Below are positions 61,054 through 64,000 of a stretch of DNA of 64,000 bases, one piece after another. The number at the start of each line of letters is the position of its first letter. The first letter of the stretch is position 1. The notes beneath the pieces are model-generated. The model saw nothing but the letters and a program-made list of their open reading frames with translations. It searched no databases and was not told the DNA's origin. Position numbers and translations under genes: made by a program. Source of the DNA: Hyphomonas sp. CY54-11-8 (GTDB lineage Bacteria; Pseudomonadota; Alphaproteobacteria; Caulobacterales; Hyphomonadaceae); NCBI RefSeq assembly GCF_000682735.1, contig NZ_AWFD01000036.1:124001-188000 (forward strand), given 5' to 3'.

Positions 61054-61475
61054 CCGCCGATTGCCTCGGGGCGCAGTTCGCGCGGCTGGTAGTTCTCGTC
61101 ATGCTTCGCCAGGATCTGGCGGGCGGTGAATGTGCCGTCGGGACTGAACTGGCCGATAGCAACAACGCCCTGCCCTTCGCGGAACAGGTCCGGCGCAATA
61201 CCGGTGAACGCGACCTTGATGTCGGCGTCGCTGTTGTCCATCACAGTGAACATCATGGTGGCGCCATCCGCCGAATAGGTCAGCGACCCCGGCTCGACCC
61301 AGCCGCCGACTTTCACCTCACGCCCCTCTTTTGGCAGGCCTTTCTCGGCCAGCGTTTGGGGTGTGTAGAAAAGGTTGGCATTCTGGCGCAGGGCCATGAA
61401 GGCAAGCCCCGCCGCAGCCAGCAGCAGGACGGCGGCGATGCCAAACGTGTAGAGTCGTCGAGTGCGTGCGCGCAT
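61050..61475 (-). CDS. ccmE: Heme chaperone CcmE
   Basis: 141 residues. One N-terminal transmembrane helix (about 10-28) is followed by the OB-fold (VKVGGWVEPGSLTYSADG, VAFTGIAPDLFREGQGVVAIG). The covalent heme-binding H125 and Y129 lie in LAKHDENYQP. It hands heme to CcmF. ccmI, often found just upstream in Alphaproteobacteria, is absent here. Confidence 0.96.
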   Translation of the reverse strand: MRARTRRLYTFGIAAVLLLAAAGLAFMALRQNANLFYTPQTLAEKGLPKEGREVKVGGWVEPGSLTYSADGATMMFTVMDNSDADIKVAFTGIAPDLFREGQGVVAIGQFSPDGTFTARQILAKHDENYQPRELRPEAIGG

Positions 61476-61590
61476 GCCGGTCTTATAGAGCGACCCGCGC
61501 CAAATTGGGAGTGCGGCAGATGCATCCGGCGCGGGCGAGACCCTGACGCCCGTATGGGCAGGCTGGAAAGGCCTGAACCCAATAGAGACG

Positions 61591-61605
61591 TGGCTGTCTA
61601 ATTGC
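61591..61605 (+). promoter_or_regulatory. Sigma-54-like -24/-12 promoter element before the [FeFe]-hydrogenase gene
   Basis: TGGC (61591-61594) and TTGC (61602-61605) are 7 bases apart, giving the GG-N10-GC spacing of sigma-54 promoters (consensus TGGCACG-N4-TTGC). The predicted start is near 61617, 46 bases upstream of the ATG. A TATACT at 61618-61623 has no good -35, so a sigma-70 promoter is less well supported. Confidence 0.4.
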
Positions 61606-61662
61606 GGGCTGTGCGTTTATACTGGGGATTATGACGCCTGCAGCATTTGAGACCTTTTTCGG

Positions 61663-63735
61663 ATGATCGAACTGACGATCAATGGGCGGCTGGTCGAAAT
61701 AGCCGAGGGTGCCACGCTGCTCGATGCTGCCAGCAAAGCAGGCATCCATATCCCCACGCTTTGCCATTATCCGGGCCTGCCGTCCCATTCGGTCTGCCGG
61801 ATGTGCCTGGTCGAGGTTGAAGGCGAGACAAAGCCGCGGCCAGCCTGCACGACTCCGGCGAATCAAGGCGACGTCGTCGAAACGGATTCAGATGCACTTC
61901 GGGAATTCCGGCAGAGCAATGGAGAGTGGCTGTTAGCCCGCCACCCGAACGACTGCATGCGATGCGAGGTCAACGGGTCCTGCAAACTGCAGAGTCTTGT
62001 CGCTGAAAACCAGTGGGAGGAGCGCTGGGAGGAAATTCCCCCGGGATCTGCCGCACATCCTGAACATTCATCAGCTGACCACACGTCGCCCAGCATATGG
62101 CGGGACCTGTCCAAATGTATCGAGTGCGGCCTGTGTGCCGAAGCCTGCGGCGAGGCCGGCCAGCAGCAATACGTGATCGGGTTTGCCGAACGCGGAGACG
62201 AACGCCTACCCGTCACCGTCTTCGACGACCCATTGTCTGAAACCCAGTGCATTTCCTGCGGTCAATGCACGCTGGTCTGTCCGGTCGGCGCCCTGATAGA
62301 GGCGCCGCATTGGCACGACGTTCTGCATACGCTCGACGCGCGCAAACGCACCTCTGTCGTCCAGGTTGCGCCAGCCACACGTATCGCGATCAGCGAAGAG
62401 TTCGGCATGGCGCCCGGGACTGTCAGCACCGGCAGGCTGATCAATGCGCTGAGGCAGCTCGGGTTCGATTATGTCTTCGATACGAATTTTACAGCTGACC
62501 TGACCATCATGGAGGAAGGGACGGAGCTGCTGACCCGTCTGGAAACACAGACGGACCTTCCACTGTTCACATCCTGCTGTCCGGGGTGGGTGAACTGGCT
62601 TGAGCTCAACCGGCCCGATCTCCTTCAGCATCTCAGCACGACGAAATCCCCCCAGCAGATGCATGGCGCCATCGCAAAGCGGGGCCATTTCGCGCGATCC
62701 CTCGGACCGGAATTCGCCGAGGGAAAAACGGAGCCCTATGTTGTCAGCGTTATGCCGTGTACGGCTAAAAAAGACGAGGCCTTGCGGCCGGGTATGTCCG
62801 GTGACGTGGATCATGTGTTGACCACGCGGGAACTCGCCCGGATGATCCGGTCCCGGGGCATTGCATTTGGCGCCCTTTCCGAAGACGGCAGTTTCGACAG
62901 CCCGCTCGGCCAGAGCACAGGCGCAGCGCAGATCTTCGGCGCCTCTGGCGGTGTGATGGAAGCGATGGTTCGTACCGCAGCCCACCTCACAGGGCAGGAA
63001 GACCAGGTTCCGCTGGAGTGGCAGCAATTGCGTGACGTGCGCGAAGCCGTAAAGACGGCGACCATTCCCGGCATCGGAACCGTAGCGGTCTGCAATGGCA
63101 TTGCCGCGGCTCAGCGCATGCTGGAGACAGACGCATGGCGCACGGCATATGTGGCCATCGAGGTCATGGCCTGTTCGGGCGGATGTCTGGGCGGCGGCGG
63201 CGAGCCGAAATCCATGGACCCTGATGTCCTGAAAAAACGCAGCAAAGCGATCTACGACATCGATGTCAAAGCCCCGCGCAGGCGCTCCTATGAGAACCCT
63301 GACGTCCGGAAACTGTACGATACGGAACTTGGGGAGCCGAACTCGATAGCCGCGCACGCCCTGCTGCACACCACCCACACGGCAAGGCGCTCAGACCGAT
63401 CGCTGCTGGCGCGGTTTCTCGATTGCGTGGACCGGCGCGATGCCGAGGCCGCCGCAAGCCTGTTCCATCCGGACGGCGTCTGGTCCACCGCCTCACCCTT
63501 CGGCGATATCCGGGGCGCAGACAACATAGCGGCGCTCATCCGCAGCGGCCTGCCACCCAGGAAATTCGGCCCTCATTTTGTGCGGCATCATCTGGAGCCG
63601 CCTGCCGTGCCAGATGATCTCGTCGTCGTTACGCCTGATGGCCAGCGATGCCGGTTCAGCATGGAAACATGTTCGATAGATGCGGATGGACGATCCCGGG
63701 TCGGGATCAGAACCCTCGAACGCCACATCCTCTAA
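61663..63735 (+). CDS. [FeFe]-hydrogenase, group A, M3 (CpI-like) type, with a C-terminal SnoaL/NTF2-like extension
   Basis: 690 residues in five parts. (1) Plant-type [2Fe-2S] domain: C34, C45, C48, C62. (2) His-Cys3 [4Fe-4S]: H94, C98, C101, C107. (3) Two [4Fe-4S] clusters: C152, C155, C158 with C206, and C196, C199, C202 with C162. (4) H-domain with L1 TSCCPGW (proton-transfer C305, cluster ligand C306), L2 MPCTAKKDEA (C366, K369), L3 EVMACSGGCLGGGGEP (C504, C508), plus TIMEEGTEL and KSPQQ. The small-subunit-like end (NPDVRKLYDTELGEP...AHALLHT) closes the hydrogenase at about 572. (5) Residues 577-690: SLLARFLDCVDRRDAEAAASLF, DGVW, IRGADNIAAL and closing strands, typical of NTF2/SnoaL folds. 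The predicted reaction is reversible H2 oxidation/proton reduction, with ferredoxin or similar as partner. No Shine-Dalgarno is evident. Maturases HydE/F/G are not in the window. Confidence 0.93.
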   Translation: MIELTINGRLVEIAEGATLLDAASKAGIHIPTLCHYPGLPSHSVCRMCLVEVEGETKPRPACTTPANQGDVVETDSDALREFRQSNGEWLLARHPNDCMRCEVNGSCKLQSLVAENQWEERWEEIPPGSAAHPEHSSADHTSPSIWRDLSKCIECGLCAEACGEAGQQQYVIGFAERGDERLPVTVFDDPLSETQCISCGQCTLVCPVGALIEAPHWHDVLHTLDARKRTSVVQVAPATRIAISEEFGMAPGTVSTGRLINALRQLGFDYVFDTNFTADLTIMEEGTELLTRLETQTDLPLFTSCCPGWVNWLELNRPDLLQHLSTTKSPQQMHGAIAKRGHFARSLGPEFAEGKTEPYVVSVMPCTAKKDEALRPGMSGDVDHVLTTRELARMIRSRGIAFGALSEDGSFDSPLGQSTGAAQIFGASGGVMEAMVRTAAHLTGQEDQVPLEWQQLRDVREAVKTATIPGIGTVAVCNGIAAAQRMLETDAWRTAYVAIEVMACSGGCLGGGGEPKSMDPDVLKKRSKAIYDIDVKAPRRRSYENPDVRKLYDTELGEPNSIAAHALLHTTHTARRSDRSLLARFLDCVDRRDAEAAASLFHPDGVWSTASPFGDIRGADNIAALIRSGLPPRKFGPHFVRHHLEPPAVPDDLVVVTPDGQRCRFSMETCSIDADGRSRVGIRTLERHIL

Positions 63736-63834: not shown

Positions 63835-64000
63835 TTGCGCCAGCTTAGAATCTTTGGCGATCTCACCGTCCAGGTGGGGATCATCCTGATCAGTGTGGCG
63901 GCCCTGTTGTCCCTGATGCGCGATGGGTTTCACATCTTCGTCCACGAAAGCTTCGCCTGGCTGATCGGTGTGACACAGGCTTTTTTCGGGACGCTGTTTG
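63835..64000 (+). CDS. Membrane protein of unknown function, cut by the window end
   Basis: From TTG 63835 an open frame runs off the window: a short basic start (LRQLRIFGDLT), one clear transmembrane helix (VQVGIILISVAALLSLM), a hydrophilic stretch with His residues (DGFHIFVHESF) and the start of another hydrophobic segment. The start codon is uncertain (GTG and ATG 63919 also possible), and the frame stays open upstream without a better start. It is co-oriented with the hydrogenase, 99 bases after its stop. No family is recognised. Confidence 0.4.
   Translation, partial: MRQLRIFGDLTVQVGIILISVAALLSLMRDGFHIFVHESFAWLIGVTQAFFGTLF

Follow-up and report, generated by a model that had tools for sequence, protein, structure and literature searches.

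The gene, its cluster ligands and its tail

The stretch of DNA analyzed here (the window) is 64,000 nucleotides long and comes from Hyphomonas sp. CY54-11-8 (contig NZ_AWFD01000036.1, positions 124,001 to 188,000 of the forward strand). Close to its downstream end it carries a gene for a homologue of the [FeFe]-hydrogenases that belongs to a family found in Pseudomonadota genomes without the maturases HydE, HydF and HydG (HydEFG). Hyphomonas has an aerobic lifestyle, and a first-pass annotation had described the gene as a complete CpI-like [FeFe]-hydrogenase. An ATG start opens a reading frame of 690 amino acids at positions 61663–63735 of the forward strand; the intact frame, the alignment to CpI and the Pfam matches bear out that the gene is complete and carries all M3-type ligands and H-cluster motifs. 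The features are as follows (62/62 refers to the intact members of the family defined below).

61663–63735, forward: complete gene for a SnoaL-tailed group A-type [FeFe]-hydrogenase homologue, 690 amino acids (open reading frame, Pfam, NCBIfam and structure-chain matches)
61663–61890, forward: N-terminal [2Fe-2S] domain, residues 1–76, with C34, C45, C48 and C62 (Pfam Fer2_4, 5e-19; cysteines invariant in 62/62)
61909–62013, forward: His-Cys3 [4Fe-4S] region, residues 83–117, with H94, C98, C101 and C107 (Pfam PF10588, 1.8e-10; invariant in 62/62)
62092–62313, forward: two ferredoxin-type [4Fe-4S] clusters, C152/155/158/206 and C162/196/199/202 (alignment; two Pfam 4Fe-4S motifs)
62569–62589, forward: H-cluster motif L1 TSCCPGW, residues 303–309, with the proton relay C305 and the cubane ligand C306 (aligned to CpI C299 and C300)
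62752–62781, forward: H-cluster motif L2 MPCTAKKDEA, residues 364–373, with the cubane ligand C366 and K369, the equivalent of CpI K358 (alignment to CpI)
63160–63207, forward: H-cluster motif L3 EVMACSGGCLGGGGEP, residues 500–515, with C504 and C508 (alignment to CpI)
63223–63387, forward: small-subunit-like region Fe_hyd_SSU, residues 521–575 (Pfam, 2.2e-18)
63388–63732, forward: SnoaL/NTF2-like C-terminal tail, residues 576–690, specific to the family (SnoaL_4, 1.5e-9; AlphaFold2; Foldseek)

The H-domain was recognized by Pfam (Fe_hyd_lg_C, 1.1e-80), and in a residue-by-residue alignment to CpI (4xdc) the residues C34/45/48/62, H94/C98/C101/C107, the eight ferredoxin cysteines, C306/C366/C504/C508 and C305 all match. 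Chance is excluded as the source of this set of ligands and motifs. The sequence shows the ligands for an intact electron wire, made up of one 2Fe-2S cluster and three 4Fe-4S clusters, and for [4Fe-4S]H, together with the [2Fe]H-binding pocket and the proton path.

The assignment to an M3-type group A homologue rather than to NuoG, also made in the first-pass annotation, agrees with the family models. The NCBIfam model TIGR02512 ([FeFe] hydrogenase, group A) was matched at 429.3 bits (cut-off 405.95), and complex I NuoG was rejected as an identity (TIGR01973, 125.7 bits against a cut-off of 470, residues 4–234 only). Nar1/NARFL is an H-domain homologue in which the [2Fe]H pocket has been lost; this identity was rejected on the pocket residues alone, which are retained here. 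The group A6 model (HydA of HydABC, NF040763) is the best-scoring named family model, but its 651 bits lie under the cut-off of 765, and the model for clostridial ferredoxin hydrogenases of the CpI type (NF040762) reached 444 bits against a cut-off of 900. Compared directly with the window protein, HydA of the bifurcating HydABC (8a6t) scores 468 bits and CpI 357 bits. An AlphaFold2 model of the whole protein, built on a 59-row alignment, has a predicted local distance difference test score (pLDDT) of 87.1, and the best Foldseek match of this model was Thermoanaerobacter kivui HydA (8a6t; template modelling score, TM-score, 0.90 on the target, 42% identity), followed by CpI. The window protein shares all cluster ligands and the domain order up to residue ~575 with HydA of HydABC but differs in the lack of conserved partner genes and of HydEFG, in the added tail and in falling under the A6 cut-off. 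It shares the M3 layout, the H-cluster pocket and the proton path with CpI of Clostridium pasteurianum but is only 36% identical to it and 116 residues longer (1feh, 574 amino acids), carries Glu instead of the Gln of CpI within the GGGxP segment of L3 and is encoded in a genome without maturases. The description as a complete CpI-like [FeFe]-hydrogenase is supported for the motifs and ligands but not in the sense of a working H2 enzyme, and HydA is a closer match than CpI.

The tail and the lack of HydE, HydF and HydG are additions to the first-pass annotation. Residues ~576–690 match Pfam SnoaL_4 (1.5e-9) and SnoaL_2, which identifies the tail as SnoaL/NTF2-like, and among the 52 of 62 intact family members that were scanned SnoaL_2 was found in 51 and SnoaL_4 in 49 (E ≤ 0.01). 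None of the solved hydrogenase chains searched aligns to the tail, their matches stopping near residue 577, and it is absent from 13 out of 13 Thermotogota relatives, whose proteins end at 579–586 amino acids. An AlphaFold2 model of the tail alone (pLDDT 89.6) had ketosteroid isomerase as its top Foldseek match (E 8.8e-6), yet with a TM-score of just 0.48 and a root-mean-square deviation of 7.1; the likeness to ketosteroid isomerase and SnoaL (NTF2-like) is thus one of fold and of a weak sequence match. The tail residues F585 and S611 align with positions 16 and 40 of ketosteroid isomerase, which we take to be the catalytic Tyr and Asp, so that isomerase chemistry is not expected and an enzymatic tail of this kind is doubtful. 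The tail thus has a fold like that of ketosteroid isomerase but is probably no isomerase. Extra domains fused to an H-domain are also described for CbA5H, which carries an SLBB domain, and for a rubrerythrin fusion (PMC13397568, PMC11926857); these domains differ from the tail seen here, and CbA5H was matured with HydEFG (PMC13397568). Searches of the open-licence literature turned up no paper that describes the tail, the family or the consistent lack of HydEFG in its carriers, and none that pairs an [FeFe]-hydrogenase with SnoaL.

A dispersed family in genomes without HydEFG

A contig-database search returned 320 relatives, and the 80 best were kept. Of these 80, 67 belong to a single family at 56–80% identity to the window protein; the other 13 are the tailless Thermotogota proteins (43–48% identity). 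By their titles, the 67 loci belong to the Alpha-, Beta-, Gamma- and Zetaproteobacteria or to unclassified Proteobacteria, and the carriers include Thioclava, Jannaschia, Alloyangia, Janthinobacterium, Pseudoduganella, Rhodoferax, Thiomicrorhabdus, Hydrogenovibrio, Gallionella, Nitrosomonas, Mariprofundus and others. The gene is intact and of full length in the window and in 61 out of 67 loci, and five of the other six copies just end at a contig edge. The sixth (L101:2-1674, Thiomicrospira sp. Kmv17 bin) contains 20 stops in the frame that was read and is either a pseudogene with a frameshift or the result of an error in the assembly. The conservation set consisted of 62 of the 68 copies (the window and 67 loci), with the frameshifted L101 and the contig-end copies L092, L095, L096, L099 and L117 dropped; pairwise identity among the intact members is 60–99% (median 71%).

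A phylogenetic tree was calculated by a quick method from rows of the best 80 of 320 relatives and of the genus, with 11 Thermotogota rows as the outgroup and no other hydrogenase groups included. The family is separated from the Thermotogota by a long branch (Shimodaira–Hasegawa-like approximate likelihood ratio test, SH-aLRT, 100), and within it the Alphaproteobacteria are mostly grouped and the Beta- and Gammaproteobacteria are intermixed; the long branch of one row (L014) is due to a wrongly chosen reading frame that was corrected in the residue comparison. Within Hyphomonas the gene was found in 4 out of 42 genomes. No relative above 60% identity was found on plasmids or phages, and 23 pattern matches among viral contigs contained zero relatives. 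Three faecal phage records labelled "Bacteriophage sp." (MT835590.1, MT835800.1 and MT837374.1) encode group A-like hydrogenases (38–41% identity over 80–81% of the query) and are possibly bacterial contigs mislabelled as phage. Contamination was rejected as the origin of the gene, since two congeners carry it at the same place and 23 of the searched carrier genomes have neither "MAG" (metagenome-assembled genome) nor "uncultured" in their titles.

HydEFG are regarded as needed to make the H-cluster (PMC10711303, PMC6984386), and their presence in the genome distinguishes a functional group A enzyme; they were not found here. The window genome is 100% complete, with 3.9 Mb in 38 contigs. In it HydG and HydE had no match at E ≤ 1e-3, and HydF had only generic GTPase matches (best 76.7 bits, cut-off 325.55). 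The searches covered 48 further carrier genomes, 3 of the same genus, 23 whose titles contain neither "MAG" nor "uncultured" and 22 labelled as one or the other, which represent 46 of the 67 carrier loci (the genome of L042 as G037) plus the Hyphomonas genomes G004 and G006, isolates and larger bins being preferred. None of the 48 contained HydG at E ≤ 1e-3, HydE above the cut-off of 254.6 bits or HydF at E ≤ 1e-30. Weak HydE matches of at most 42.9 bits occurred in 8 out of 48 carriers, but likewise in 12 out of 14 "ring" control genomes (one of them above the cut-off), and all three Thermotogota genomes used as positive controls returned HydG, HydE and HydF in every search. The absence of all three maturases from the genome, which the first-pass annotation had named as an argument against an active hydrogenase, thus holds for the window genome and for 48 out of 48 further carriers.

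A survey of 397 tool-drawn Pseudomonadota genomes (completeness ≥ 90) for Fe_hyd_lg_C and HydG found the H-domain in five, three with the tailed family (the window genome G000, G006 and G260) and two with ordinary hydrogenases (G475 and G593). The sole HydG above the cut-off lies in G475, on the same contig as its ordinary hydrogenase and less than 3 kb from it. The alphaproteobacterial G593, in contrast, lacks a HydG match although it has two H-domain matches (L131, L135) to [FeFe]-hydrogenases outside the family; it is the exception among the ordinary cases and resembles that of Rhodospirillum rubrum discussed below. Overall, the tailed proteins are a distinct family that is thinly spread over Pseudomonadota lacking HydE, HydF and HydG. 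HypD of the [NiFe] CN/CO pathway is absent from the window genome and present in 8 out of 50 carrier genome entries (probably 8 out of 49, as G260 and G239 appear to be one genome with the tail and size of L081), so that a supply of CO and CN through this pathway is not general and was rejected as an explanation.

Part of the family has already been published as putative hydrogenases, since Thiomicrospira chilensis DSM 12352 is a carrier (L105, 70% identity); its genome (G221) contains no HydG, HydE or HydF. Greening et al. 2015, as cited in PMC4744846, assigned the proteins of T. chilensis, T. kuenenii, T. pelophila and Hydrogenovibrio marinus to group A1, with Roseibacterium (70%) and Wenzhouxiangella (68%) given there as the nearest annotated relatives. 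We infer from the shared carrier that these A1 proteins belong to the same family as the window gene. According to PMC4744846, the three Thiomicrospira species did not consume H2 when assayed with 2% H2 and 1% O2, some strains also being assayed in other media and in air; no mention of a tail or of missing maturases was found there for these proteins.

Conservation, selection and genome setting

The family is under purifying selection. The 19 cluster cysteines, the proton-relay C305 and C477 add up to 21 cysteines that are invariant in 62 out of 62 members, as is H94. The equivalents of CpI C299, K358, M353, M497, E279, E282 and R286 are invariant in 62/62, and those of Q325 and S319 are present in 61/62. 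Of 18 positions that we take to line the proton path or the pocket for [2Fe]H, 14 do not vary within the family, whereas random sets of H-domain positions average 6.1 and reach 14 in 3 out of 20,000 draws. The ratios of nonsynonymous to synonymous substitutions (dN/dS, Nei–Gojobori) between the window and G004 are 0.083 for the gene, 0.062 for the H-domain, 0.071 for the N-terminal clusters and 0.165 for the tail, and are rough because dS is near 1; the closer pair L082/L084 (dS 0.47) has an H-domain ratio of 0.031. Over the 216 pairs that passed a saturation filter, dN/dS was 0.031–0.236 (median 0.117) for the H-domain and 0.070–0.921 (median 0.266) for the tail, the value of 0.92 coming from the near-identical L090/L094 with very few changes.

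The following residues are fixed in at least 64 out of 65 family rows and shared by at most 1 out of 11 Thermotogota rows: the additional cysteine C477 (63091–63093), E514 (63202–63204), which is a Glu in L3 where the 11 Thermotogota rows have Gln, W312 (62596–62598) and Q423 (62929–62931). These residues could be the signature of an altered chemistry.

The core respiratory surroundings noted in the first-pass annotation were confirmed. In G000, G004 and G006 the gene lies between ccmI and ccmE-ccmF-ccmH (cytochrome c maturation), and in G037 it is located elsewhere. All 42 Hyphomonas genomes contain ccmI, and 30 ccmI loci were returned (L145–L172, window 61475–61663 and beyond): ccmE adjoins ccmI (less than ~250 bases) in 15, three are the hydrogenase carriers, eight have a gap of ~0.5–1.3 kb and four were left without an assigned arrangement. 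Two of the wider gaps were read: that of L146 encodes a flavoprotein next to an HxlR regulator, and that of L155 has an acyltransferase-like reading frame (by eye). The ccmI-ccmE interval is therefore an insertion hotspot with varied cargo, and the hydrogenase gene is one of its insertions. Directly downstream in the window, from position 63835 (L010:3835-5595), lies a gene for a protein with a formylglycine-generating (FGE)-sulfatase domain (Pfam, 2.2e-61) that is absent from the same place in G004 and G006 and is thus a separate strain-specific insertion in the same hotspot. Between G000 and G004 the hydrogenase gene is more divergent (dN 0.086, dS 1.04) than seven neighbours (dN 0.020–0.049, dS 0.44–0.83), reflecting either faster evolution or replacement.

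Across the family no neighbouring gene, HydB/HydC-like genes included, is common to more than 7 out of 68 loci, a count based on rough gene calling and on flanks of a few bases to 10 kb per side, so that some neighbours were unseen; in one group A6 comparator, by contrast, the hydrogenase gene is flanked by NuoE/NuoF-like genes. FNR-like boxes with at most two mismatches occur in 16 out of 64 upstream regions (14.8% expected, one-sided p 0.022, uncorrected; the expectation comes from random stretches of the same loci and is not matched for intergenic composition), and the best site of the window has four mismatches. The ~60 bases that immediately precede the start codon are alike, by eye, in the beta- and gammaproteobacterial loci L043, L046, L054, L056 and L097 and may be a promoter, a leader or a transfer scar. 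Rfam gave no match in six loci (L043, L054, L056, L097, L089 and L010), a scan for sigma-70 promoters and terminators around the gene gave nothing above shuffles, and no conserved downstream block of the kind of an integron or mobile cassette was seen by eye.

A repurposed redox protein or a hydrogenase

We favor, with about an even chance of being right, the interpretation that the family represents a selected, stand-alone H-domain redox protein that was repurposed from a HydABC-type group A enzyme, would function without the canonical [2Fe]H and is not a conventional hydrogenase. The general Fe–S machinery (Isc/Suf) would load the cubanes, and the canonical di-iron subcluster [2Fe]H with its CO, CN and dithiolate ligands would not be made. 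The protein could then act as a redox sensor or as a small-molecule oxidoreductase at the H-domain cubane and the conserved proton-linked pocket, on a substrate that can only be guessed, and the tail may, again as a guess, be a module for ligand binding, oligomerisation or gating. The protein is therefore most likely no conventional H2-metabolizing enzyme. In favor of this interpretation are the missing HydEFG, with the one HydG of the 397-genome survey lying beside an ordinary hydrogenase, the scarcity of HypD, the lack of a shared neighbour, the purifying selection, the retained pocket and proton path, the long branch to the Thermotogota and the failure of T. chilensis, T. kuenenii and T. 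pelophila to consume H2.

Several points weigh against this interpretation. Among the positions that are invariant in the 11 Thermotogota rows, those of the pocket and proton path were kept (in at least 64 out of 65 family rows) in 13 out of 15 cases, compared with 75 out of 134 for the others (Fisher one-sided p 0.018), so that the cofactor pocket is not decaying even by this fairer control. An unrelaxed [2Fe]H pocket and proton path would be hard to explain without a bound di-iron cofactor. FNR-like boxes, which would signal low oxygen, are slightly in excess upstream, a result that is suggestive at most, and the absence of H2 uptake in T. chilensis and its relatives is weak evidence because the assays reported in PMC4744846 contained O2.

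The foremost alternative, which we consider unlikely, is that the proteins are active [FeFe]-hydrogenases and that aerobes build their H-cluster, or something closely analogous, by a route independent of HydEFG. The retention of the pocket and proton positions beyond other ancestrally fixed positions is the strongest argument for such a route, and it is joined by the invariance of the seven CpI equivalents listed above, the purifying selection and the slight upstream excess of FNR-like boxes. Against it, CO, CN and the dithiolate bridge are not known to be made in the absence of HydG and HydE, HypD is missing from 42 out of 50 carrier entries and no partner gene is conserved. A recombinant Entamoeba enzyme is reportedly active. 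Published precedents without maturases exist in that maturase homologues are reported for some but not all eukaryotes with an [FeFe]-hydrogenase (PMC3785491), and in that R. rubrum, like the window genome an alphaproteobacterial one, has an [FeFe]-hydrogenase gene and no maturases (PMC4967309). The same source records that close relatives of R. rubrum do have all maturases and that earlier authors supposed its hydrogenase to be probably inactive or otherwise employed; the window family, which is tailed and extends over several classes, can be likened to this case by description only. The missing H2 uptake of T. chilensis in PMC4744846 also argues against an active enzyme. If such a route operates, the family would to our knowledge be the first conserved maturase-independent H-cluster-like system, with the SnoaL tail possibly serving in delivery, protection or gating, although we regard this as rather doubtful.

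It is improbable that a standard H-cluster is made by maturases too divergent for the HydE, HydF and HydG models or is supplied from outside the cell. The models could miss extremely divergent maturases and the weak HydE matches in eight carriers could be read in this way, but such matches occur in the controls too, HydG is without a match in 48 out of 48 genomes even at the permissive threshold, and the widely dispersed gene travels without a fixed neighbour. It is very improbable that the protein is an ordinary hydrogenase of the CpI kind that serves H2 sensing or microaerobic H2 metabolism, as suggested in the first-pass annotation: the motifs, the spacing and the fold match CpI and HydA of HydABC and the uncorrected FNR-like excess points the same way, though with four mismatches in the window's best site, but the absence of HydE, HydF and HydG largely refutes it, no HydB/HydC-like gene is shared beyond 7 of the 68 loci, unlike in the A6 comparator, and the scores remain under the A6 and clostridial cut-offs. 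Least probable, and contradicted by the selection seen, is that a transferred hydrogenase gene has decayed to a relic without function, for which the missing maturases, the faster divergence compared with seven neighbours, the frameshifted L101 copy and the presence in just 4 out of 42 congeners could be cited, and against which stand the 61 out of 67 intact copies (five of the other six being merely cut by contig ends), the invariance of all cluster ligands and an H-domain dN/dS of at most 0.236 over 216 pairs.

The puzzle posed by R. rubrum thus recurs here as a conserved, selected and dispersed family with an intact cofactor pocket in culturable bacteria. If the proteins are repurposed redox proteins, a new function would be added to an H-domain that has been assigned in surveys, according to PMC4744846, to the H2-evolving group A1, and if an H-cluster is assembled in them without HydEFG, they would reveal a new route to this cofactor.

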